A stretch of 41,286 bases of DNA from the NCBI GenBank assembly GCA_028714855.1, contig JAQTLP010000014.1, positions 1 through 41,286 of the forward strand. The letters run 5' to 3'. The DNA is from Phycisphaerae bacterium. GTDB lineage: Bacteria > Planctomycetota > Phycisphaerae > Sedimentisphaerales > Anaerobacaceae. The position numbers were made by a program, and so were the translations under genes. Shown one piece after another: positions 1 to 37,187 of the stretch. Position 1 is the first letter of the stretch. Each line of letters starts with the position of its first letter. The notes beneath the pieces were generated by a model that saw only the letters and a program-made list of their open reading frames with translations, was not told the DNA's origin and searched no databases.

Positions 1-390
1 AAGCCGTTGCCCCATTGGGTCAGAACACTATTTAGGGTCAGACTTTGGGTCCGAGGAAAAATGATTCTTTACCATTTATGGAGACTTGACCATGTCGCCA
101 AAACCGCTTAGATGCAAAAAGTTGGAAACGCGGGGGGTATATACAACCTGCAAAAAATGGCCTCTCCAGCCATATAGGAGGAGGGGTGAGTGTAACTGGA
201 GAGGCGTAAACACAGTGTTCAATTAGAAGGCGTTTCTGAGAAGGCAAAGTGATACGGTTTTTTCGAGAAATTTATAAATTTTTTTGGGATTCTCAATAGC
301 GGGCTTTCGGAATGAGAAGAGTAACTCCCACCACGCCGGGTGGGGGCTATATATAAACGCCCAGACGGGGGGCATTGAAGGGGAATTTGC
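1..390. other. gene-free stretch with two stem-loops
   Basis: No credible gene. GGGTCAGA occurs near both positions 17 and 37. Besides the repeat at 160-205, a second hairpin pairs CCCACC (327-332) with GGTGGG (39 bases into the same line, 339-344). A minus-strand open frame at 38-247 has no supporting features. Function unknown. Confidence 0.4.
160..205. repeat. 10-bp inverted repeat / stem-loop
   Basis: GCCTCTCCAG at 160-169 is perfectly complemented by CTGGAGAGGC at 196-205, with a 26-base loop rich in G. No gene is convincing around it. It may be a terminator of a gene to the left or part of an RNA structure; no T-run follows directly. Confidence 0.4.
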
Positions 391-420
391 TTGATTTTTG
401 GCGGGGAAAAGGCTTACAAT
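391..420 (+). promoter_or_regulatory. candidate promoter of the dockerin gene
   Basis: TTGATT (391-396) and TACAAT (415-420) are separated by 18 bases, a fair match to a housekeeping sigma promoter. It lies about 120 bases upstream of the secreted dockerin gene at 544, leaving a long 5' leader. Confidence 0.4.
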
Positions 421-543
421 GGGGTTTTTAAAGGCTTTTAATCTTAAAGGAGGGCAGGGGGCGTGACGAGTATAGAAGAGAGTTTTTAAGTCTATCTGCT
501 CGTTCGATATGGGATTTCAACATTTTTTGAAGGTGATAGTAAG

Positions 544-1263
544 ATGATTAAGCAATCGGTTCTTATATTGTTAGCGGTGTCAGTTTTGTTCGCAGTTTTA
601 CCTGTGGCCGCTGATGAAACTATCATCAAGAATGATTCCATAGCAGATACCAACCTGGCTGTCGTTGTCGGGGATTTTTACGCCGGCGAGCAGGCGGGGG
701 TACGCCTTACCTCGCCTATTGACGGTATCATCGTAGGAGTCCAGATTCTGTGGAAGGGCGATGTCCCCGGCGATTCGCCGCAAAAGGGAAGCGCCATATA
801 CATTTATGCCGAAGGCGCTTTTCCGACGCCGGGAGCAGAGCTTGCGACAATAGACACTCCACTTCTGGTTGCGGACGGATGGAACGAATTCAGATACCTC
901 GACCCTGACGAGACGGTCGCTTTAAGTATTCCGGTTGTCAGCGGCCAGAGCTTTTATGTAACGCTTGAATTTGCCAATGACACTGATGTTGGCTCCGGCA
1001 AGGCAAGCGTGGTGAGGGACACAGACGGCTGTCAGGCCGGCCGTAATGTTTTATATGCAATTCCGGGCGGCTGGTTCAACTTATGCCTGTTAGGAGTTCC
1101 CGGCGACCTAGTGATACGGGCGGTCGTCGAATCCGGGTCGGTATGCCCTGAGAAATTGGCCGGCGATATTAACGGCGACTGCTATGTGGATATGCTTGAC
1201 CTCGCGGTGCTGGCGAATGACTGGCTGAAATGCAATAATCTGATGGACGAGGATTGTTCTTAG
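544..1263 (+). CDS. secreted protein with C-terminal dockerin-like repeat
   Basis: This 239-aa protein starts with a clear Sec signal peptide (basic MIKQ, then a hydrophobic run, cleavage likely after VAADE near residue 24). The middle, about residues 30-195, is a beta-rich domain I do not recognise. The last 35 residues carry one dockerin-type calcium loop, GDINGDCYVDMLDLAVLAND, which follows the DxNxDxxVDxxDL pattern of type I dockerins. Only one full repeat is visible, whereas a complete dockerin has two. Dockerins bind cohesin domains on a scaffold, so the protein is probably held outside the cell through such a partner. AAGGTGA lies about 6 bases before the ATG. Start and strand are secure; the role of the main domain is unknown. 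Confidence 0.8.
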   Translation: MIKQSVLILLAVSVLFAVLPVAADETIIKNDSIADTNLAVVVGDFYAGEQAGVRLTSPIDGIIVGVQILWKGDVPGDSPQKGSAIYIYAEGAFPTPGAELATIDTPLLVADGWNEFRYLDPDETVALSIPVVSGQSFYVTLEFANDTDVGSGKASVVRDTDGCQAGRNVLYAIPGGWFNLCLLGVPGDLVIRAVVESGSVCPEKLAGDINGDCYVDMLDLAVLANDWLKCNNLMDEDCS

Positions 1264-6318: not shown

Positions 6319-6622
6319 TAAGGGCATAAAATTCGTTCGGATAGCTTCAGGACTTCGGCAAGGAGAAATGGCAGAGCGTCTTGGTATTAGCCAAAACTAT
6401 CTATCTCTTTTGGAAAACAATAAAGCTGAACCGAGCATTGCGCTGTTGAAAAAAATATCGAAAAATTTTGGCGTTCCAGCAGGTTTCTTGTTCTGGGAAG
6501 ATGCGATGCCATCTGAGGGGGAAAAGCCCGAAGTTACTGAAAAGTACGAACGTATCAGGAGCCTTGTACATGAACTGCAACAATTGCGCATCTCTCACCA
6601 GTTGCAATCAGCAACTGAATAA
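6308..6622 (+). CDS. XRE-family HTH regulator of the retron
   Basis: A 104-aa protein with a Cro/CI-type helix-turn-helix in residues 3-65: GKGIKFVRIASGLRQGEMAERLGISQNYLSLLENNKAEPSIALLKKISKNFGV contains the usual recognition helix SQNYLSLLE and the PS...L trailing helix. The C-terminal 35 residues are helical and charged. It starts with GTG at 6308, preceded by a strong AAGGAGG (6295-6301). The end overlaps the RT start by 53 bases in another frame, so the two are translationally linked. In retrons such HTH proteins may repress the operon or be part of the effector; the inverted repeat over the -10 box at 5735-5761 is a plausible site. Confidence 0.85.
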   Translation: MNIGKGIKFVRIASGLRQGEMAERLGISQNYLSLLENNKAEPSIALLKKISKNFGVPAGFLFWEDAMPSEGEKPEVTEKYERIRSLVHELQQLRISHQLQSATE

Positions 6623-7571
6623 GGATGTAAAGTTAGACAAAACACTTCGTATCAGATCTGTTAAACATCTAGCCTCAATTCTTGGAATTTCGACTGATAC
6701 GTTGTTAAGACTAAAAGAGAATTCTGATAGATACTATCGTGAATTTAACTTAGACGTAAAGGGTAAAAATCGCTTATTGGTTGAAGCAATCGGGCTGTTA
6801 AAAACTATACAACGTAGAATTCTTGACGATTTACTTTTAAGAATTCGTCCATTTGAAGGTTCCTTTGGGTTGGCGACAGGCAGAACCATTAAAGATAATG
6901 CAAAGGTACATGCTAAGTCTAAGTACATCGTAAAACTTGACATAAAAGACTTTTATCCAAGCATCCATCGAAAAAAAATTTACGAATTTTTCACAAAACA
7001 ACAAAAATGCAGCCCGGATGTTACACATATACTAACTGCCCTGACGACCCGTAAACATTCGCTTCCTTTAGGGACATCTACGAGTCCGATGCTTGCTGAC
7101 CAAATAGTAAGGCCTATCGACATGAGAATTAACGGTATTGCAAATAAGGCTGAATTGAAATACACACGCTATATTGATGATATCACCTTATCTGGAAATT
7201 TCCCCCTGGAGCGAATGTCCAAAACAGTTATGAAACTGTTAAAACAGTCGGGTTTTAGGACAAAGAAAGACAAGCTTATATATTACAAGCCATTTGAGAT
7301 TGGACAAGAAAGAGTTATCACTGGTGTACGAGTTACTGATGGGCAAATTTCGGCACCATTGGATTATGTTAAAGCATTAGAAATTGAACTGAAAGCAGCT
7401 ATTTATCAAAGTAAAAGAGAAACCCCCACAGGAGAGTTTCAGACATGTGAGCATTACCGGGGTAAAATAACTTACATCAACTGGTTGGATCCTAAATTGG
7501 GAGAGGGGTTGCTGAAACTTTATCACAAAGTAAAATGGCAACATCTTGAGTGGGCAGCAAGAAGACAGTAA
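6570..7571 (+). CDS. retron-type reverse transcriptase
   Basis: A 334-aa RT when started at ATG 6570, which has AGGAG 8 bases upstream; an open frame continues back to 6468 but only as overlap with the XRE gene. Catalytic motifs are present: VKLDIKDFYPSI near residue 122 (first Asp), LPLGTSTSP near 163 (the usual QG is LG here) and YIDD at 201-204. NAKVH near residue 110 matches the NAxxH motif of retron region X, and VITGVRV near 249 matches the VTG of region Y. These two motifs separate retron RTs from group II intron and DGR enzymes. It would prime from the 2'-OH of a guanosine in msr and copy msd into msDNA. The gene is AT-richer than its neighbours, which fits horizontal arrival. Confidence 0.93.
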   Translation: MNCNNCASLTSCNQQLNKDVKLDKTLRIRSVKHLASILGISTDTLLRLKENSDRYYREFNLDVKGKNRLLVEAIGLLKTIQRRILDDLLLRIRPFEGSFGLATGRTIKDNAKVHAKSKYIVKLDIKDFYPSIHRKKIYEFFTKQQKCSPDVTHILTALTTRKHSLPLGTSTSPMLADQIVRPIDMRINGIANKAELKYTRYIDDITLSGNFPLERMSKTVMKLLKQSGFRTKKDKLIYYKPFEIGQERVITGVRVTDGQISAPLDYVKALEIELKAAIYQSKRETPTGEFQTCEHYRGKITYINWLDPKLGEGLLKLYHKVKWQHLEWAARRQ

Positions 7572-17292: not shown

Positions 17293-19014
17293 TTAGCTTA
17301 CAGATTTTTTCCTATGACCTCTGTTACTGTACTGGCTTAATTTTACTTCAATGGCCCGGACAAGGGCATCAAATGAACTCCTCTTGGCCTCATTAAGAGA
17401 AGCTGTTGGGTTATGCTCTATCATCTCAGCCACTTTACTTTTCAATTCTTGCTTTACACGATCGTTCCAATCCTTGCCCTGTTGAACAAATACATCACGC
17501 ATTCTATCTGACCATTTCTTTGCTGAATGGAATTTTGGTGTGTCCAGTGTAATTCCATATACGTTCTCTACGATCTTTTTGTATATATTGGAATCGTAAA
17601 GATCTTCAATCTCGGCCTCTGTCATTCCTTCACAAGTTGAAAAATTTACATCTGCATCAGTCATAATTCCTTCTATTCTTGCTTTATCGAAGGATTCTTT
17701 ACCACAACTATCGTGATCCAAAAAACAATGGATGAGACACAGAGCATCAGTTATCAAGCTGGCTTTGTATGATAGGTTTGTTCCCCCGTCCAATGTTTCA
17801 ATCGCAAGAGTCTGGTTGTCAAACGCTGATTTAATTTTAGCTGATGCGTGGGAAAGAAGAGCCTTCATGGCAACCTTATCTTCATGGCCTTCGACAAGCA
17901 AAACTAATTCTGCATGGCGGAGGTTGTCGGATGCACGAACACCAAGAATATTTCGAATGTCTTCAACTTTTGTTGCTGGCTGCGCTCTCTGATTGTTAAC
18001 TATAATATTGCTGGAGATATTCATCTTGTCTACAAACAATGGACAGTGTGTTGTGACGACTACTTGGTGTTTCTCGCTTAGTTCATTTAACACGGCGCGG
18101 AGTTCGTGAATTGCTGACGGATGAAGATGTGACTCTGGTTCTTCGATGGCGACGACAAGGTTTTTACCACTTGCCCCCCGCTCAGATGCGTGTCGCATTA
18201 TTGCGAGCGCAGCAAGACTTTGAACTCCATCTCCTTTGTATTCCAGAAGGGTGGGTGTACCATCATCAACCTCTATCTCGCAAGATCTTCGCATTGCTCT
18301 ATATCGTTCTTCCGAAGATATTCCAACGCGAACATTGGAAACAGCGGGCAAAAACTTTACGAGGGTGTCCTTTATAGTTTTTGAGAGAAGATCTAGTACC
18401 GGCTCTTGAATCTTTGCCACCCTCTCAAGTGCTTTTATGTAATCGGGATTATCCTCAACTTTAGCCAGCTCACGTTCTACCATATTCTCCACGACTTTCT
18501 GTGCCGACTCGGCTGTTCGTATGGCAGGAATATGAGTAAAATCAATATGTTCTGAAATGAACGTGCATACTTCTTCATGCTTGGCAGTCAATGCCTTTCC
18601 GCCCTTTCCCTGTTTTAGAACTCTAATCTTCATCTCGCCTTTCGAATTGAAAGATATCCGTACGGGAAGTGTTCCGGTTACATAACTTTTAATTTTTTTC
18701 CAGAACTCGTTTCTTTCATCATCCGACAAATCAAATTCCAATATAATTAAAGACTCACCATTAGGTTGTTCTTTCTGAAGCTGTATCGGGAAATCCCTAT
18801 TCCAATCATAATGGCGGTGACGCCAAGATAATCTTGCTCCTAGGGGTAAACGCCTCCCCATTGTTAATACATCCATCGCAACAACTAATGCTCGAAGAAT
18901 GTTAGATTTTCCTTCATTGTTTGGACCCACTAAGATAGCCTTGTTCCCCACCTTGATCTTATGGGCTTTAGTTATACTCCTATATTTTTCAACAGTGAAA
19001 GCAACGAGCTTCAT
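17293..19014 (-). CDS. OLD-family ATP-dependent endonuclease (AAA ATPase + TOPRIM)
   Basis: The 573-aa protein has an SMC/ABC-like ATPase split over residues 1-340: Walker A GPNNEGKSN at 30-38, a signature-like GDGVQSLAAL near 262, Walker B LVVAIEEPESHLHP near 287, and the H-loop VVTTHCP. A TOPRIM nuclease follows: VLLVEGHEDKVA near 370 (catalytic Glu) and LDHDSCGK near 430 (DxD). This order defines OLD proteins, which protect cells from phages and cut DNA with metal ions. No GajB-like UvrD helicase gene adjoins, so it resembles a stand-alone (class 1) OLD rather than Gabija. It is a solitary gene between convergent pnuC and codirectional ftsY, AT-richer than ftsY. Confidence 0.88.
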   Translation of the reverse strand: MKLVAFTVEKYRSITKAHKIKVGNKAILVGPNNEGKSNILRALVVAMDVLTMGRRLPLGARLSWRHRHYDWNRDFPIQLQKEQPNGESLIILEFDLSDDERNEFWKKIKSYVTGTLPVRISFNSKGEMKIRVLKQGKGGKALTAKHEEVCTFISEHIDFTHIPAIRTAESAQKVVENMVERELAKVEDNPDYIKALERVAKIQEPVLDLLSKTIKDTLVKFLPAVSNVRVGISSEERYRAMRRSCEIEVDDGTPTLLEYKGDGVQSLAALAIMRHASERGASGKNLVVAIEEPESHLHPSAIHELRAVLNELSEKHQVVVTTHCPLFVDKMNISSNIIVNNQRAQPATKVEDIRNILGVRASDNLRHAELVLLVEGHEDKVAMKALLSHASAKIKSAFDNQTLAIETLDGGTNLSYKASLITDALCLIHCFLDHDSCGKESFDKARIEGIMTDADVNFSTCEGMTEAEIEDLYDSNIYKKIVENVYGITLDTPKFHSAKKWSDRMRDVFVQQGKDWNDRVKQELKSKVAEMIEHNPTASLNEAKRSSFDALVRAIEVKLSQYSNRGHRKKSVS

Positions 19015-21850: not shown

Positions 21851-22549
21851 TTATGCCCTGCGTTTTCTAATCAAAGCCAGTCCGCCAAACCCAAGCAGAA
21901 CTAACGTCATCGGCTCCGGTACAACCTGACTCTGGTCTGCAAAAATAGTTATAGTCAAACCGTTGGCCGCATTATAATTATCTGTCAGATAATCTGATAT
22001 GTCAGTACCGCCATCGAGTGAGACATCACTATCAAGACCGGCAACATTATCGCTGCCCCAGGATAACGAAACTCCATAGAGGTCGGACCAATCCGGATTG
22101 ACTTCGACATTTGAAATGGCCACCCAGGCCTTACCATCCAGAGCGCCGAATCCTGTTCTTCCTTCCCAGTATTTACCACCGAAGCCGCCGCCGGAATCCA
22201 TACCGCCGCTGATTTTTATAGACCAGTTGGTATCCGAGACATTCCAGTCGTAAAGCTCGACTGACCAGCTACCGCCGACGAGGTCAAACCTTGCTCTTGT
22301 CGGGGCGGTTGCAGAATCATAACGGTTCCAGCCACAGTCAACTATGGTACTGTTAAATAAGTAGGCACTGGTGTCCGTTAAAGTAATGCTTGCATCACCG
22401 CCGCTCCAAATCAAACTGCCGGTACCCGCATTATAATTGGCGCTAGCACCCGTTGTGTAATTGATTTGGACATTGTCAACGGGAGCGGCAAACGCAGACA
22501 AGGGAAGCAAAACCAAACACACAATCAATAGTACAACAAATCTTTTCAT
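21851..22549 (-). CDS. PEP-CTERM sorting domain protein (232 aa)
   Basis: A signal peptide (MKRFVVLLIVCLVLLPLSAFA, cleavage near 21) precedes a beta-rich domain of about 180 residues with many Gly, Asp, Ser and Trp. The C-terminus, VPEPMTLVLLGFGGLALIRKRRA, is a textbook PEP-CTERM: PEP, one hydrophobic helix, basic tail. Exosortase cuts such signals and attaches proteins to the surface or extracellular matrix. AGGAGGAGTGAA precedes the ATG. It starts 38 bases after the end of the next PEP-CTERM gene upstream, so they probably form one operon. The main domain is not recognised. Confidence 0.85.
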   Translation of the reverse strand: MKRFVVLLIVCLVLLPLSAFAAPVDNVQINYTTGASANYNAGTGSLIWSGGDASITLTDTSAYLFNSTIVDCGWNRYDSATAPTRARFDLVGGSWSVELYDWNVSDTNWSIKISGGMDSGGGFGGKYWEGRTGFGALDGKAWVAISNVEVNPDWSDLYGVSLSWGSDNVAGLDSDVSLDGGTDISDYLTDNYNAANGLTITIFADQSQVVPEPMTLVLLGFGGLALIRKRRA

Positions 22550-22587: not shown

Positions 22588-23343
22588 CTATCTTATTTTC
22601 TTCCGAATAAATAATGTACCGCCGACCAACAAGAGTAAACTTGCAGGTTCGGGTATTCCCGTGAACTTAATATTTGAAATGCCCGAATGGGCGAAGTCTC
22701 CCGTTACAAAATTATTTGCCGAGGCGGTTTTAAGTGAAAGGTCCATCTTGGGGCCGGTCATAACAAGCGTATCGCCATTGGAAAGCAAAATCCCTGATGC
22801 CACACCAATGCTTCCCGGTACAAAATCCAGAAACAACGTTTTGTCAAATCGTCCTTCTTCGCCGAGAGTTTCCTGGAAAAACCAGCGGTCTTCACCGGTG
22901 GCGAGGGGGTCTTCATACAAAGGAACAAGAGTAGCCTCGAGGATCTGTTTGGCTGAAGTGCCGATTCCGCCATACACCCAAGTCGTACCTTTTCTTATTC
23001 CTCCTGTGATTCTTACGGTAACGCTTCCCTCGAAATAACCGGCTGCCCGGGTGGTGGACGAAACGTCTCGTTCAAGGTTCGGTAGAAATTCAAGTTTACC
23101 CAGAATGCTGGCATAAGAACCTGTATAGTCAAAAACATATAAACTGGCCAAGCTAATTGTGTCCGGGTTAAAATCAATGTGACCTGCACCGTCCGCATAT
23201 CGATACCAGGGTTCAGTCCCCATAAAACTCAAATCCATCTTGTCAACATGAAGAGTCGTAGCCGAGGAAGGAAAAGAGAAAAGAAGAACAAACACTACCC
23301 CCGCCAACAGATTTCGTACCGTTACTCCCTTTACGTTTCTCAT
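22588..23343 (-). CDS. PEP-CTERM sorting domain protein (251 aa)
   Basis: The start at ATG 23343 is chosen because AAGGAGGAGACGTGAG precedes it and a signal peptide follows (VRNLLAGVVFVLLFSFPSSATT). An open frame reaches back to 23481 but runs through non-coding leader. The mature domain is unrecognised, and the C-terminus GIPEPASLLLLVGGTLFIRKKIR is a PEP-CTERM signal. It is the first gene of a two-gene unit with the 232-aa PEP-CTERM gene and is transcribed from the promoter at 23605-23634 through a leader of roughly 250 bases. Confidence 0.82.
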   Translation of the reverse strand: MRNVKGVTVRNLLAGVVFVLLFSFPSSATTLHVDKMDLSFMGTEPWYRYADGAGHIDFNPDTISLASLYVFDYTGSYASILGKLEFLPNLERDVSSTTRAAGYFEGSVTVRITGGIRKGTTWVYGGIGTSAKQILEATLVPLYEDPLATGEDRWFFQETLGEEGRFDKTLFLDFVPGSIGVASGILLSNGDTLVMTGPKMDLSLKTASANNFVTGDFAHSGISNIKFTGIPEPASLLLLVGGTLFIRKKIR

Positions 23344-23598
23344 CTCACGTCTCCTCCTTGCGTTTATCCAAACCCTTACAGCACGTTCGGAAACAAAGCC
23401 TCTTTTTGCCCAGCCACCGTTTTGAGTGGTCTTGTCTTCCAAGAGGGCAGACCGTGCCATAGCAAACGCGCCGCCTAACAAAACGTATACTCTCTTTACT
23501 CTTTCCTTTGCGGGGCCGTACTAACTGAGACCCTCTTCATAACTAATTTTGTGGTGGAGTGAAGGCATGCTTCTCTCTGTTCACCACCTCTTCCTTAA
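23344..23598 (-). promoter_or_regulatory. long 5' leader of the 251-aa PEP-CTERM gene
   Basis: On the minus strand the leader begins with GGTGGTGAACAGAGAG, which can pair with the later TTCACTCCACCAC to form a hairpin (23552-23590). This part, and the later CGCAAAGGAAAGAG, match the leader of the gene at 28019-28792. After the point where that gene has its ATG, this leader continues for about 140 bases and contains a CCAC/GTGG hairpin before the real start. It could be a structured regulatory RNA or a leader with a decayed earlier start. I cannot match it to a known riboswitch. Confidence 0.4.
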
Positions 23599-23714: not shown

Positions 23715-25580
23715 TTACCAGTCTGCAAGGGCTCCCATATTGCCCTGTGCGAGCCACATATCGAACATATTTATCCTTCCGTCTTTATTTATATCACACA
23801 GGTCGTCATACATCGCAAAATATGCCTCATTCGTCGTATTGAGCGTTCCTCCCATTTTGCCTTGTATCAACCATGTATCGAAGAAATTAACGCGGCCATC
23901 ATTATTAGCATCGCCCGAAAGTGGTGACCATGCCTTTTTTTGGCCAGGCCCATATGCAATTTGCATCAAGGGGTCGCCGATTACAACCTCAGCCCAGCTC
24001 AAAAAGGGGATGGCAGTAAACGCCGCTTCCGCAAAAGCAAGGTCGGCAAAGCCGTCGCCATCCTCGTCGGCCAGTAAATTGTACTGCAAGTAGAGATTAT
24101 CAATAACGGCTTCGGATACAGGTTCAAAGGCGTGCCCAATTGCGCCTGTGCCTCCTATACTTATAAAATCCACGATTTTACCCTGTGCTACTGGACTCGT
24201 TGCCACGTTAGAAAACATCGTTACGGCATTGAGGCTTTCGATTGATGCAAAAACAGCGCCGTTCGTGCACTTAAACAACGGCTCAGAAGCAGGACCTCCG
24301 TGCAGAAGATAATCTGCAGTGCTGTCTTCGTCGCCGTTACATCCGTAAGTGGCCAAAGCAATAATTGCCTGGCTTGGCTGTCTGTTCGGGTCAGTCGCAG
24401 CATAAGCATCGAGGTCCGCCTGAGTAAGACGACGGGCAGCTCTTTGGTCAAGCATCACCTCTAAGTTATATCCATAATCCATAAAGTTTATATTCAGATT
24501 GTTTGCATTAACCTGCTGATTAGTCAGGGCTATGTATGATTCCGTATAATCATATTTGATAAGCGCACTGCGAGCATCTGGGGGCTGATTAACTGCAGGG
24601 TCATAAACGATATAATTGGCCTGGCCGTCGAGATTATAAATCCGGTTCCTGTCGAGTGCTTTTGCCGGGGCATCGTCAAGCACAACAACCGCTCCGGCCG
24701 GATTAACACCGATATTCGGATTCGAGGCTCTTTTTGCTCTTTCAAGCATCGCCCGAACGGAGAAAATGGCGCTTTGCCCCTGGTTCTTGGGACCATCCAG
24801 CCTGCACGTAAGATAAATGTCTCCGGCGTTAAATGAGCGATTTATTGCTCCGTAAATAGCAGGGTCTGGCCAGGACCATTCGTTCTCACCCTCGATTTTC
24901 GGTGGCATGCCTGTAGCCTGATAGGCGTTCGTCCAGAGGAACGTATTACTGTCCGGCGGCAGCCGCTCGAAAAGACTGATGCTGCTTTGGCTGTATCCCT
25001 GATAAGGATTGACCATTCTGTTTTCCGGGCCGAAAGGATTGCTGCCGTAGTCGCTGTACCACAGGCAGGTCAACTCTGATTCAACAGACGCTATATCCAC
25101 ATTTGCCAAATTATTTTTTACCGTACCAGGATTGGAGCCGGCGGGATATATGGCGTTGCCATAAGCCGGGTCTGAATCTTTGATTCGATAAGGCATACCG
25201 GCGGTTGTGATAATTACTTTGATTGTGGTGATACGCTCGGGATAGTTTAAATCGGCCAAGTAATTGCGGACAGGTTCGGCAATCGAATCGTTGTATTGCT
25301 GCCGTGTGATTATCTCGTTTTCAGGGTTGCTTTGTGGACCGCTGCAATCGGCTAAACCAGACAGATACAGAACTTGAGACTCATTGATTCCCGGATAATA
25401 TTTGCGGTAGAGTTTAGCAACATAACGACTTGTTGGGCTGTTTTCATTGACCAGAACTAATACGTCCGAAGGATGCAACTGCCCAATTGCAGACGTAGAA
25501 AACAGGGCAAGACAACAGAAAAGTATTGCCCCTCCCCCCGGAAAACTTCTCCCACTCTTAAGCTTGCTCCTATGGGGCAT
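23715..25580 (-). CDS. secreted TIGR03790-family protein with C-terminal dockerin
   Basis: A 621-aa secreted protein. After a basic start, residues about 17-34 form the signal peptide (ILFCCLALFSTSAIG). The body (about 35-545) has the features of the TIGR03790 family: SDVLVLVNENSPTSRYVAKLYRKYYP, later ITTAGMPYRI, the long Asp/Asn-rich core, and GDPLMQIAYG near its end. That family is frequent in planctomycetes and has no assigned biochemical function. The C-terminus has two dockerin-type loops, GDANNDGRVNFFDTWLIQGK and DINKDGRINMFDMWLAQGN, a complete dockerin pair. The neighbour upstream in the operon has a cohesin-like domain and a PEP-CTERM anchor. Confidence 0.82.
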   Translation of the reverse strand: MPHRSKLKSGRSFPGGGAILFCCLALFSTSAIGQLHPSDVLVLVNENSPTSRYVAKLYRKYYPGINESQVLYLSGLADCSGPQSNPENEIITRQQYNDSIAEPVRNYLADLNYPERITTIKVIITTAGMPYRIKDSDPAYGNAIYPAGSNPGTVKNNLANVDIASVESELTCLWYSDYGSNPFGPENRMVNPYQGYSQSSISLFERLPPDSNTFLWTNAYQATGMPPKIEGENEWSWPDPAIYGAINRSFNAGDIYLTCRLDGPKNQGQSAIFSVRAMLERAKRASNPNIGVNPAGAVVVLDDAPAKALDRNRIYNLDGQANYIVYDPAVNQPPDARSALIKYDYTESYIALTNQQVNANNLNINFMDYGYNLEVMLDQRAARRLTQADLDAYAATDPNRQPSQAIIALATYGCNGDEDSTADYLLHGGPASEPLFKCTNGAVFASIESLNAVTMFSNVATSPVAQGKIVDFISIGGTGAIGHAFEPVSEAVIDNLYLQYNLLADEDGDGFADLAFAEAAFTAIPFLSWAEVVIGDPLMQIAYGPGQKKAWSPLSGDANNDGRVNFFDTWLIQGKMGGTLNTTNEAYFAMYDDLCDINKDGRINMFDMWLAQGNMGALADW

Positions 25581-25606
25581 TTTTTATATGCACCCTACTT
25601 TCTCAC

Positions 25607-25654
25607 GCACTCGTATTTACGTTCGTGTGATGAGCCGTTCATTCGACCGAGTGC
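25607..25654. repeat. 7-bp inverted repeat before the TIGR03790 gene
   Basis: GCACTCG (25607-25613) and CGAGTGC (25648-25654) are perfect complements 34 bases apart, in the 112-base gap between the 219-aa gene and the TIGR03790-dockerin gene. It may fold in the mRNA. Confidence 0.35.
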
Positions 25655-25692
25655 AAATATAAGTAATCCTTTATGGACAAAATACGGAAAAA

Positions 25693-26352
25693 TTATTTTC
25701 CGGAATCAATCCTTCGACTTCTAAATGCCAAACCTGTAATAACTGCCATAATCAGCAAACTCCCAGGCTCCGGTGCTACTATCGTAAAGACATTATTCCC
25801 AGGCAAGAACTGGATGTTGTCGGGATACATGTATGACGGCATACCCTCGTCATCGCGTAGAACCCCAAAAAATCCTGTTGTGTGAGTATAATCTGTGAGT
25901 TCATAAGTAACCTGCTCTCCTACATTACCGATTGCTTCAATTGTTACTTGAGCAAGCAGGCTAAAACCACCGATGCCGGTGTTGGAATCCGTCGGCCCCG
26001 GCGTAAAAACTCCCAATGCATATATATTGCCGTTTTTGTCAGCATTCAACGACGACCAACCAGAACCTGCGGCTATTGGAGTAGGGGCTATTAAAACAGG
26101 GTCAGCATTAACCTGAACCACACCGTCGGTATCGACAACCATATCGAGCTGCCAGACGTTCAGGCCATTACCTGCTTCTACTTCTTCTTCGATATGGGCC
26201 CAAATGCTGATGGTTGCTTCCTCGCCGAAAGCAAGGGTATTTTTATCCGCAGTTATTTGGAATAAAAGATTAGCAGAAGAAACAGCATTAAAGAAAAGAA
26301 GCACAAGCGTGGCAAAACAGACGAGCTTTGATTTGCTATTCATCACCACCAT
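25693..26352 (-). CDS. PEP-CTERM protein with cohesin-like domain (219 aa)
   Basis: Signal peptide (MVVMNSKSKLVCFATLVLLFFNAVSSA), then LLFQITADKNTLAFGEEATISIWAHI, LNVWQLDMVVDTDGVVQV and FSLLAQVTIEAIG. This order of strands and spacing resembles cohesin domains, which bind dockerins. The C-terminus APEPGSLLIMAVITGLAFRSRR is a PEP-CTERM anchor, slightly unusual because six residues follow the arginines. GAGGAGGAG precedes the ATG pair (26352 or 26343). The next gene downstream encodes a dockerin protein. The cohesin call is by eye and should be treated as a suggestion; the PEP-CTERM call is firm. Confidence 0.78.
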   Translation of the reverse strand: MVVMNSKSKLVCFATLVLLFFNAVSSANLLFQITADKNTLAFGEEATISIWAHIEEEVEAGNGLNVWQLDMVVDTDGVVQVNADPVLIAPTPIAAGSGWSSLNADKNGNIYALGVFTPGPTDSNTGIGGFSLLAQVTIEAIGNVGEQVTYELTDYTHTTGFFGVLRDDEGMPSYMYPDNIQFLPGNNVFTIVAPEPGSLLIMAVITGLAFRSRRIDSGK

Positions 26353-26704: not shown

Positions 26705-27445
26705 TTAAGCGTTGCGTTTTCTTAACAGAGCAAGTGTTCCGAGGCCGAGCAGGCAAACCGTCGCCGGCTCCGGAGTATGCGGCGGTGTCGTCGGCAGTAG
26801 AATTAGGTAGTCCTGACCGGAGAGTGTGCTGGTTGCGGCAAGGTTCCAATCAAAGTATGCCGTGTCGCCGTTCAGCCCGCCAAGCCAGGAGTTAGCTGCA
26901 GCGGCCTGTTCGATACCTGTAGAGCGGAAACCTGTCCCGGTGCTCACATTCCAGGTGGCGGGGTTGCCATTCTGTTCGTAAACAATCTCCCATACAGCAG
27001 CACCGAAGGCTTCCGCCAGTCGTTTATTTGCAGTAGTCGGGTTGGTGACCCAGTTGGTGTCGAAATGTCTGCCCCAAAGCTCGCGAATGTAGTTGGCTTT
27101 GAGGGTCTGCATGGGCGTACCGTATTGAGCCGGCAGAGGCGCTTCGTCCAAGGGGACAACATTCTGCCAGCCATTATATGGTTCTTGAGGCAATTCTATA
27201 CAGAAGCCCCAATCAGGAACCTGTGTACCCAAATCGGTGCCGCCTGCGTTGGTCCAAGAATAGATTCCGGTGTATACGGTTACGCCGGAAAGGCCGCCGC
27301 CCCAGATTGTGCCTGTGTCCGAAAGACTATTATTGTGATTCTTGGCGTTTACAGTTCCAAGAATAGTCGCACTTGCTGTCGAAGTTAGTGCGAGGCTTAC
27401 AATAACTGCCGAACAAGCAATAATTAGCCATTTTTTTCTCATCAT
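26705..27445 (-). CDS. PEP-CTERM protein with thioester-domain-like pattern (246 aa)
   Basis: Signal peptide (MMRKKWLIIACSAVIVSLALTSTASA), then a domain with WGFCIELPQEP near residue 80 and AEAFGAAVWEIVYEQ near 150. This Cys...(A)xxW layout recalls surface thioester domains (TED), where a Cys forms a thioester with a Gln five residues before the Trp region; here the position that would be Gln is Gly, so the bond is unlikely even if the fold is shared. The C-terminus TPEPATVCLLGLGTLALLRKRNA is a PEP-CTERM signal. AAGGAGAAGAAG precedes the start. A good promoter lies at 27792-27820, leaving a leader of over 300 bases. Confidence 0.8.
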   Translation of the reverse strand: MMRKKWLIIACSAVIVSLALTSTASATILGTVNAKNHNNSLSDTGTIWGGGLSGVTVYTGIYSWTNAGGTDLGTQVPDWGFCIELPQEPYNGWQNVVPLDEAPLPAQYGTPMQTLKANYIRELWGRHFDTNWVTNPTTANKRLAEAFGAAVWEIVYEQNGNPATWNVSTGTGFRSTGIEQAAAANSWLGGLNGDTAYFDWNLAATSTLSGQDYLILLPTTPPHTPEPATVCLLGLGTLALLRKRNA

Positions 27446-35454: not shown

Positions 35455-36009
35455 TCAATCCCAAAACCAATACTTCCAAAGGGCGCCTAAAAATACTATT
35501 AAAAAATTAACACCTACAACGATAGGAAGAAGTAAACGTTTAATAATAATCGCACCGTTTCTAACCTCACGAACAAGAACAGATTCAATGGGATTCTTGT
35601 TGTTTACGAAACAGACTGTTTCATCCTCTAATGAATAAGGGCCTTTAACCTCTTTTCCGGCTTTTCTTGTCTTTTTTATTTCCTCTTTTTCCTTCCCGCC
35701 TATTACCTTATTTTTCTCTACAATATTGTACCTGCTGGATGTATATAGACTTCCTTTGTATTCATACTCGTAAGAAATAACCCGATAGAAAATCGGAGGG
35801 TTAGCCATAGGATGAACATCTAACTTCACATTTTTTATTAGGCAGGGCACCTCAATCCAATTCTTAACTCCTTTCACATCTTTGTTTGTCTTCGACAAGG
35901 TGAGCAAAAACCAAATAACACAAACCGACACTACTGTCGCAGAGACTATCGCTTGTTTTTTATATCGACTCTTATAATGTCTGTTCTGTTCTTCTCGTTC
36001 CACAATCAA
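35455..36009 (-). CDS. DUF3592-like two-helix membrane protein
   Basis: A 184-aa protein with a hydrophobic helix near residues 20-38 (AIVSATVVSVCVIWFLLTL) and another at 160-178 (LLLPIVVGVNFLIVFLGAL). Between them is an extracytoplasmic beta domain with VPCLIKNVKL, ISYEYEYKGSLYTSSRY and VCFVNNKNPIESVL, the features of DUF3592. Function unknown. It starts with TTG overlapping the Rhs stop (TTGA), so it is coupled to the Rhs tip; that position is where an immunity gene would be. The start could also be GTG 36003. Confidence 0.7.
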   Translation of the reverse strand: MIVEREEQNRHYKSRYKKQAIVSATVVSVCVIWFLLTLSKTNKDVKGVKNWIEVPCLIKNVKLDVHPMANPPIFYRVISYEYEYKGSLYTSSRYNIVEKNKVIGGKEKEEIKKTRKAGKEVKGPYSLEDETVCFVNNKNPIESVLVREVRNGAIIIKRLLLPIVVGVNFLIVFLGALWKYWFWD

Positions 36010-37187
36010 TCCCGGAGGAAACGTTCACCCCAACTACTGAGATAATTCTCGAAATTTTTCATTGACGGATCATCAAGCAGCCAATCCAAATTGCCACTAG
36101 CTATATCCCCTGCCAGATAATCACCAAACTTAATTAACTTGTCCTGAAGTACGGTATCCGTCAGGTTCGAACCAACAAAGTTTACAATACCAACAATTCC
36201 GCGTATGCCGGCCCGTGTTAATCCTCCTTCAAACTGTGCCATTAAGAGTTCTGCCTGAATTGCCTGATTCATGCCCATAATATTAAATATCTCACTTGCT
36301 TTCGCTGATTCTCTAAATAACGTTGTTGAAAACGCACAATCCAATTTTCGAAGACTACCCAGAATACCGTTAACTACAAGAGTTTCCGCATAGCTTATCT
36401 CTCGCCCACTCGGATCAGTGTGGTTTATCGGGTTATTTAAACAATACAGATATTTGTGCAGCGTCAACGGTTCTTCGAACTTGCCAGATTCCGGGTCTCT
36501 TCCCGTAAAGCGCATCAGCGCAGGGTCGTATTGGCGGGCGCGGAGATAGTATTGGTTGATTTCACTGTCGTAATACTGTCCAGTATATTTAAAACTATTC
36601 TCTGTGTTCTCTGTGCACTCTGTGGCAAAGGATTCACCGAAGGGATTATAGGTGTAACTATTTTGCGTTGCACCTTGATTGTTGATAACAAGTCGCGCGC
36701 TGCCTAAACGGTCGTGGAGATAGAAGAATCTGGCCGCATTGTGGCTGCCATTATGCTGGGCTAAAATCTGTGAATCCGCGTAAATATATGTCTTCTTGAT
36801 AGCCATACTGTCATTTGGGTCAAGCTCAAGCAATATCGTAGGTAATTCTCCAGATATGTCAACAACATACTTTCTTCGCGTCGTTGTCTGGCCTGAAACG
36901 GTCGATTGCCGCCAGACGCGGTTGCCGAACGGGTCATATTTTAGCGAGATTGAATCAGAGCCGGCTGTCGCAGAGCGCAGCTTGCCTTCCCAGTTGTATA
37001 CGAAGGAGAATGAAGGCTTGGCGGTAAGCCGGCCGTTTTCGTCCCACGTAAGCGCATCATTGCCGGCCTTGGTCATAATGTCGCAGTCGTAGATATCGCT
37101 GTCGCCTGCGGTTTTATCGTATTCGTAATCGGTATCGACGCTGTTGAGAGTCTTTGTTTCTATTACGAACTCTAAAAGATATGCCAA
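36006..37187 (-). CDS. Rhs core and variable C-terminal tip, 5'-truncated
   Basis: A 393-residue frame, far shorter than a full Rhs protein (usually over 1000). YDPFGNRVWRQ, HDRLGSARLVINNQG, YNPFGE and YLRARQYDPALMRFTGRDPE...YLYCLNNPINHTDPSG are YD-repeat and Rhs-associated core sequences that end in the DPSG boundary near residue 257. The final 135 residues are a tip unlike the core, helical, with no toxin family I recognise. The 5' end has only a TTG at 37187, 9 bases from tRNA-Glu, so the N-terminal shell is missing and secretion of this product is doubtful. Probably a remnant created by recombination at the tRNA. Confidence 0.8.
   Translation of the reverse strand: MAYLLEFVIETKTLNSVDTDYEYDKTAGDSDIYDCDIMTKAGNDALTWDENGRLTAKPSFSFVYNWEGKLRSATAGSDSISLKYDPFGNRVWRQSTVSGQTTTRRKYVVDISGELPTILLELDPNDSMAIKKTYIYADSQILAQHNGSHNAARFFYLHDRLGSARLVINNQGATQNSYTYNPFGESFATECTENTENSFKYTGQYYDSEINQYYLRARQYDPALMRFTGRDPESGKFEEPLTLHKYLYCLNNPINHTDPSGREISYAETLVVNGILGSLRKLDCAFSTTLFRESAKASEIFNIMGMNQAIQAELLMAQFEGGLTRAGIRGIVGIVNFVGSNLTDTVLQDKLIKFGDYLAGDIASGNLDWLLDDPSMKNFENYLSSWGERFLRD

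Follow-up and report, generated by a model that had tools for sequence, protein, structure and literature searches.

A candidate one-to-one cohesin-dockerin pair with an exosortase-type anchor in Phycisphaerae

In a stretch of 41,286 nucleotides from a Phycisphaerae bacterium (the window), a gene for a small protein with a PEP-CTERM-like tail stands beside a gene for a dockerin-bearing protein. This raises the question of whether the first protein is a surface receptor for the second and, if so, whether it also serves the other dockerin proteins of this genome (G000; 2.31 Mb, 19 contigs). A sequence-only reading had placed the pair at 23715-26352, and both open reading frames were indeed found there on the minus strand, with the P0001 gene upstream, the P0002 gene downstream and 112 bp between them in the ORF list. 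We propose that they encode a cohesin and a dockerin dedicated to each other, one to one, with the cohesin anchored through the exosortase and the cargo thereby anchored in trans, and we put the probability of this at roughly three in four. The features of the cassette are listed below.

25693-26352, minus strand: P0001, cohesin-like PEP-CTERM protein, 219 aa (from the open reading frame, the predicted fold and the tail layout)
26275-26352, minus strand: leader of P0001, about residues 1-26
25771-26274, minus strand: cohesin-fold domain of P0001, about residues 27-194 (from the model)
25711-25776, minus strand: PEP-CTERM tail of P0001, residues 193-214
23715-25580, minus strand: P0002, divergent TIGR03790 relative with a predicted gingipain/clan CD fold and a C-terminal dockerin, 621 aa
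23946-25481, minus strand: gingipain-fold (TIGR03790-like) domain of P0002, residues 34-545
23718-23915, minus strand: two-loop dockerin of P0002, repeats DANNDGRVNFFDTWLIQGKMGG and DINKDGRINMFDMWLAQGNMGA
22588-23481, minus strand: PEP-CTERM protein A of the cassette (open frame from TTG at 23481; likely start MRNVKG... near 23343)
21851-22549, minus strand: PEP-CTERM protein B of the cassette, 232 aa
26642-26685: terminator-like hairpin, 20 pairs on the plus strand and 17 on the minus strand

The hairpin stands between the cassette and an upstream PEP-CTERM gene (26705-27445), and is probably the upstream boundary of the cassette. Elsewhere in the window we observed a retron-type reverse transcriptase gene with a TTG start (6468-7571, plus strand; PADLOC RT_VI, 1.2e-65). 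Its match to an NCBIfam retron St85-like model (8.7e-52) is nevertheless under the cut-off, and no direct repeats of 40 bases were found near this gene. The window also contains an OLD/GajA-like AAA ATPase gene (17293-19014, minus strand), a possible defence gene, and a gene for an RHS repeat-associated core domain protein (36006-37187, minus strand; NCBIfam TIGR03696, 3e-21).

P0001 had been called cohesin-like from its letters, a claim on which sequence profiles and predicted structure disagree. The Pfam cohesin profile PF00963 matched none of the ten members of the P0001 family at E-values up to 10. A phmmer search of P0001 found no cohesin (best match an agrin domain at 0.71), nor did a profile search of PDB sequences (best match a collagen adhesin at 0.11), and a PHROGs search gave no match. 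Besides the PEP-CTERM tail match, a Pfam scan of P0001 returned no domain, and its single cohesin-fold domain comes from the model. For this model, the mature protein was folded with nine relatives (alignment A2), giving a pLDDT of 82 and a pTM of 0.76. Foldseek returned 52 PDB matches at E ≤ 1e-3 (best 6.7e-7), and nearly all of those listed are cohesins. Likewise, cohesins take up nearly the whole list of the best 50 PDB entries in VIA-align 2, where the best Z was 13.0 and the rmsd was 2.9 over 143 residues to 4u3s and 2.8 over 144 residues to 5k39. Structural comparison with cohesins was the check that the sequence-only reading had proposed for this domain, and it returned a cohesin fold. 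The model gives strong support to a predicted cohesin beta-sandwich in P0001, although the family lies outside the reach of PF00963.

The CLIPPER adhesin domain is also similar to the model (Z 10.2). Together with the missing PF00963 match, this would fit a domain that binds carbohydrate or another surface partner, with the adjacency to a dockerin gene reflecting only a shared pathway. We consider this unlikely, as it is cohesins that head the structure list at a Z of about 13; the fusion of the cohesin-like domain to dockerins in two genomes (G148 and G717) and the dockerin interface symmetry that accompanies the cohesin gene, both described below, also speak against it.

The PEP-CTERM anchor attributed to P0001 held up in its layout but not in its score. 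The tail, APEPGSLLIMAVITGLAFRSRR, has a visible PEP-CTERM layout, and a helix is predicted at residues 170-191 of the model, but its own matches remain under the curated cut-offs (16.4 versus 20.7 bits in Pfam, 14.9 versus 16 in NCBIfam). At the family level, PF07589 matches nine of the ten members at E-values up to 10, with a best value of 3.8e-5. The genome encodes one exosortase (G000:C4:67758-68543; E 1.1e-57; TIGR02602 144.2 bits, cut-off 105.55), whose gene is close to a polysaccharide export protein gene. As a separate observation, a 222-aa frame in another genome (L048 of G006, 237-902, minus strand) combines a Pfam-level cohesin match with a VPAP...LRRR tail resembling a PEP-CTERM anchor, and is perhaps a second, separate case of a cohesin with an exosortase-type tail.

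The neighbouring gene had been read as a TIGR03790 protein with two dockerin loops. The loops are well founded: PF00404 matches residues 556-608 with 27.3 bits (cut-off 22.9), two calcium loops are present in the sequence, and the C-terminal stretch of roughly 60 residues has a dockerin fold in the model (2y3n_B, Z 9.8, rmsd 1.8 over 60). The family name needs a qualifier, as the TIGR03790 match of 55.9 bits is under the curated 67; P0002 is, judged by its sequence, a divergent relative. The genome also has a canonical TIGR03790 gene at another place (G000:C1:297154-298260). The model of P0002 has a weak middle (pLDDT 65, pTM 0.74). It aligns best with gingipains (4ief_D, Z 17.5, rmsd 3.9 over 302; 1cvr, Z 17.1), with separases and TPR-CHAT next (Z about 9 to 9.5), which makes a clan CD fold likely. 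Among the 12 rows of the TIGR03790-like family alignment there is no invariant Cys, and H483 of P0002 is the sole His that every one of the 11 filled rows contains; the would-be catalytic residues of P0002 were placed by inference from strand order. The lack of an invariant Cys argues, through conservation, against classical Cys-peptidase chemistry. P0002 is predicted to share the gingipain (C25/clan CD) fold, but its family alignment does not show the conserved catalytic Cys and His of gingipains, and in its gingipain-fold domain the classical Cys-His site is probably lost or altered.

A first scan of the genome contigs with P0001 alone found no relative, whereas a second with a TIGR03790-like alignment (A1) found 12 loci. 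From these, alignment A2 excludes L041, L042 and L044, which have no adjacent cohesin, and alignment A3 excludes L043, which has a frame shift in the record. The A2 cohesin-like profile had strong matches (E < 1e-30) in 16 of the 161 genomes of the order. Of 87 genomes with a match, the 71 with weaker ones were set aside, as among the weaker matches listed the alignment is mainly to the C-terminal PEP-CTERM end of the profile. In 15 of the 16 genomes, a TIGR03790-like dockerin gene lies directly downstream on the same strand, with 3 to 172 bp between the open frames. Chance adjacency was rejected on this count. The remaining genome, G148, has a fusion of the cohesin-like domain with dockerin repeats, without a PEP-CTERM tail. 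A class sample of 397 genomes yielded 14 with an A2 match at E ≤ 1e-8, including two outside the order. Reading these two by eye, we found that the cohesin-like domain of G717 is fused to a dockerin and adjoins a dockerin protein, and that a dockerin protein comes after the cohesin-like gene in G744. All 18 cohesin-like members (16 in the order, plus G717 and G744) thus adjoin or are fused with a dockerin. The named records among the relatives are planctomycete MAGs, for example from Anaerohalosphaeraceae, Sedimentisphaerales and Phycisphaerae.

Homologues of PEP-CTERM proteins A and B each occupy the corresponding position in 18 of 25 loci. The remaining loci are at contig ends (G007, G026, G112 and G148) or miss the genes (G131, G386 and G477). 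Because A and B are conserved after the cargo gene, we take cargo, A and B to be the core of the cassette, to which the cohesin looks like an added clip.

We next considered whether P0001 might be a general surface scaffold that holds many of the dockerin proteins of this genome, as the sequence-only reading had suggested with its mini-cellulosome-like scheme. A common receptor is wanting in G000: there are 17 dockerin matches at E ≤ 0.01 (two of them in one protein), one exosortase, and no PF00963 cohesin at E ≤ 1e-3. The recognition helices nevertheless point elsewhere. Twelve of the 13 other readable dockerin tails, among them that of the gene at 544, carry a generic helix in which a Trp stands near position 20 of the repeat, the exception being an S8-peptidase-like tail (L001); the count does not include the dockerin proteins of L004 and L016, which were read out of frame. 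The recognition motif of the cassette dockerin, FFDTWLIQGKMG / MFDMWLAQGNMG, is unlike this helix, which makes a private pair likelier than a general scaffold. Moreover, of the 16 genomes with the cohesin-like gene, 15 have it linked to a dockerin gene of its own and the last has it fused to dockerins, while most genomes of the order lack it. General display is thus very unlikely, and the comparison with a cellulosome did not survive either: we found one cohesin, one evident cargo with a peptidase-like rather than polysaccharide-degrading fold, and no scaffold repeats, whereas a cellulosome is defined by a multi-cohesin scaffoldin with a carbohydrate-binding module.

The gene at 544 had been put forward as a second dockerin gene. 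It does carry a generic dockerin loop, but this is a single calcium loop with a sub-threshold score of 17.2 bits, and we rejected it as a second client of the anchored cohesin on account of the single loop and its generic recognition helix. Two further observations concern the other dockerins of this genome. About a dozen G000 dockerin proteins share one generic recognition helix, and the genome contains no recognisable cohesin for them. In addition, the products of two nearby genes on contig G000:C3 (L027, 3096-3875 and 4709-5419, both minus strand) begin alike with HxHFxIGxNADGIxGxxDDN but differ in their tails, a dockerin on one and PEP-CTERM on the other. Dockerin and PEP-CTERM tails look interchangeable on this one kind of protein in G000.

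If the cassette dockerin serves one dedicated cohesin, its interface might carry a trace of this. In cellulosome studies, sequence symmetry between the two dockerin repeats goes with dual binding. We fixed positions 10, 11 and 13-18, which we take to be the recognition positions of type I dockerins, before comparing the repeats in 22 of the 25 loci (leaving out G148, cut before the tail, and G386 and G477, outside the order). Within the 15 linked proteins, the mean identity between repeats 1 and 2 at these positions was 0.69, compared to 0.19 and 0.21 for the same repeat between orthologues; none of 20000 shuffles reached the within-protein value. P0002 itself scores 0.62 and shows the internal symmetry of type I dockerins. 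Clear examples are STWDYYYVRF, found twice in G136, and DSTDIWCVKY, found twice in G036. Per position (1-20), the excess likeness falls at 9-11 and 13-18, with little elsewhere in the loop except at position 7, and variable loop positions show a small excess (0.20 versus 0.17 and 0.11).

The likeness between repeats could also have arisen if the dockerin-like tail is a calcium-stabilised spacer whose repeats were recently duplicated without any function in binding. Duplication without function is a standing hypothesis for dockerin symmetry, whose functional role is left unresolved in the relevant part of PMC8063739. For this cassette we consider it highly improbable. The likeness is concentrated at interface positions with little excess at loop positions, it is weaker where there is no cohesin gene, and the codons are overall no more alike than expected: identical residues use the same codon in 40 of 83 cases (48%, 42% expected). 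These codon counts also led us to reject gene conversion as the main cause of the likeness. Exceptions are G136 (8/8 codons shared) and G150 (5/5), whose repeats could each be recent copies.

In the seven relatives that are readable and have no cohesin known next to them, the repeat identity is 0.21 (one-sided Mann-Whitney p 2.4e-4, which overstates the contrast because the seven proteins represent about four independent lineages, four of the proteins belonging to a single one). G141, which lies inside the cohesin branch of the tree described below and has no adjacent cohesin, retains a symmetry of 0.50. Cohesin and dockerin distances correlate after removing the divergence of the gingipain-fold domain (partial r 0.60, permutation p 2e-4), in a partial Mantel test of 15 pairs that are related by descent and whose kinship is only partly removed; the cohesin of G115 is partial in this test, and G116 is represented by the longer fragment of its TIGR03790-like domain alone. 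Judging from the repeats, each of the two seems to be maintained as a match for one cohesin face, consistent with dual binding, while the cohesin-dockerin interface is seemingly one that changes quickly between genomes.

The TIGR03790-like clade was found in 23 of the 161 genomes of the order, eight of them without an adjacent cohesin. In G131 and G132, where the cohesin is absent, the TIGR03790-like protein has both dockerin repeats and its own PEP-CTERM tail, which occurs in none of the 15 cohesin-linked proteins. That these two retain a dockerin despite their own tail counts against our reading. So do four proteins (G050, G141, G158 and G160) that have dockerin repeats but no PEP-CTERM of their own and no cohesin next to them; anchoring is dispensable there or provided by something unseen. 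The G156 protein has dockerin repeats and no PEP-CTERM, on a contig that begins inside the gene and leaves the adjacent cohesin beyond judgement, and that of G148 is cut before the tail. When 25 TIGR03790-like domains were placed in a tree, those of the 15 linked proteins, G141 and G148 were on one side of a branch (support 82/99), with G131/G132 and the G050 group outside it. The tree fits a single gain of the cohesin partner, though its root is that of the drawing and the cohesin branch is not among the fully supported ones.

Among wider TIGR03790 proteins, the 30 best-scoring loci of the phylum had no dockerin or PEP-CTERM tail by pattern, a result of little weight because several of the frames are probably antisense. 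Four of 16 further loci, mostly from the same class, had dockerin-like repeats and one had a dockerin plus PEP-CTERM, also by pattern, which missed a look-alike tail in L168. In four genomes of one genus in the class (L162-L165), the TIGR03790 proteins end in a different pair of dockerin-like repeats, DLDGDGSLTIFDFLAFQN-like twice. The family must therefore have acquired tails of this kind either repeatedly or at an early date.

Together, these patterns raise the idea that a surface cargo moved from an anchor in cis (its own PEP-CTERM) to one in trans (an exosortase-anchored single cohesin). This would have given a private one-to-one pair in which selection at the interface kept both dockerin repeats matched, despite the lack of a multi-cohesin scaffold. 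We hold this to be about evenly balanced between true and false, and the direction of the switch, from cis to trans, is one that we infer.

The dedicated pair that we favour links P0001 to P0002 because of their conserved adjacency, the fusions, the interface symmetry that tracks the neighbouring gene, and their correlated divergence. Mechanistically, P0001 would be secreted through its leader, after which its PEP-CTERM tail would be processed by the single exosortase and the protein retained on the cell surface or within the exopolysaccharide layer. There, its single cohesin-fold domain would bind the dockerin of P0002 in a calcium-dependent manner, as the comparative evidence suggests. The cargo, which may have lost its peptidase activity, would be held in trans by this non-covalent clip, where some relatives would hold a homologous cargo in cis by its own PEP-CTERM. 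PEP-CTERM proteins A and B are probably part of the same surface assembly.

Several known systems resemble parts of this arrangement. The single-cohesin anchoring scaffoldins of Ruminococcus, as presented in the relevant sections of PMC11557425, also place a surface-attached cohesin where it takes up a dockerin-bearing protein. Those scaffoldins are attached by sortase, whereas P0001 has an exosortase/PEP-CTERM type tail in place of sortase or SLH attachment, one cohesin, one evident cargo and no cellulolytic scaffold. The 'Planctosome' proposed for freshwater Planctomycetes, in the part of PMC6461901 that describes it, likewise consists of non-cellulosomal planctomycete cohesin and dockerin proteins and is proposed to hold peptidases; it has a lamin-tail anchor, large multidomain proteins and an adaptor, in contrast to the small cohesin with a PEP-CTERM tail described here, whose immediate neighbour is a dockerin protein of gingipain fold. 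Limihaloglobus sulfuriphilus provides another PVC-group set, presumably non-cellulolytic, with a Coh2-Doc1-Coh1 scaffoldin and 13 dockerin proteins (PMC11557425). Unlike P0001, this scaffoldin combines two cohesins and a dockerin in one protein and was found by standard searches, and the section on this species does not describe an exosortase anchor, whereas P0001 has an exosortase-type tail. Finally, the cellulosome-like complex of Cloacimonadota, as outlined in the portion of PMC8542988 concerned, includes a gingipain-type peptidase with a C-terminal dockerin, but it is built on a large scaffoldin that has several cohesins, CBMs and an attachment domain at its C terminus, instead of a single cohesin with PEP-CTERM. 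Our literature search found no paper in which PEP-CTERM occurs together with dockerin or cohesin; dockerin and exosortase co-occur in one paper, unconnected in the passages that mention them. The pair would be a non-cellulosomal cohesin-dockerin attachment with an exosortase-type anchor, new in that anchor.

If this is true, the cassette joins two sorting systems, PEP-CTERM and cohesin-dockerin, and offers a receptor to at least one dockerin out of the many in planctomycetes that have no recognisable cohesin. It would also assign a gingipain fold to a TIGR03790 relative. The 15 natural, diverged one-to-one cohesin-dockerin pairs and their partnerless relatives would make up a test set for the function of dockerin symmetry, and may be new candidate orthogonal binding pairs. 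Should the switch from cis to trans anchoring also be true, the two-fold symmetry of dockerins would serve more than packing on crowded scaffolds.
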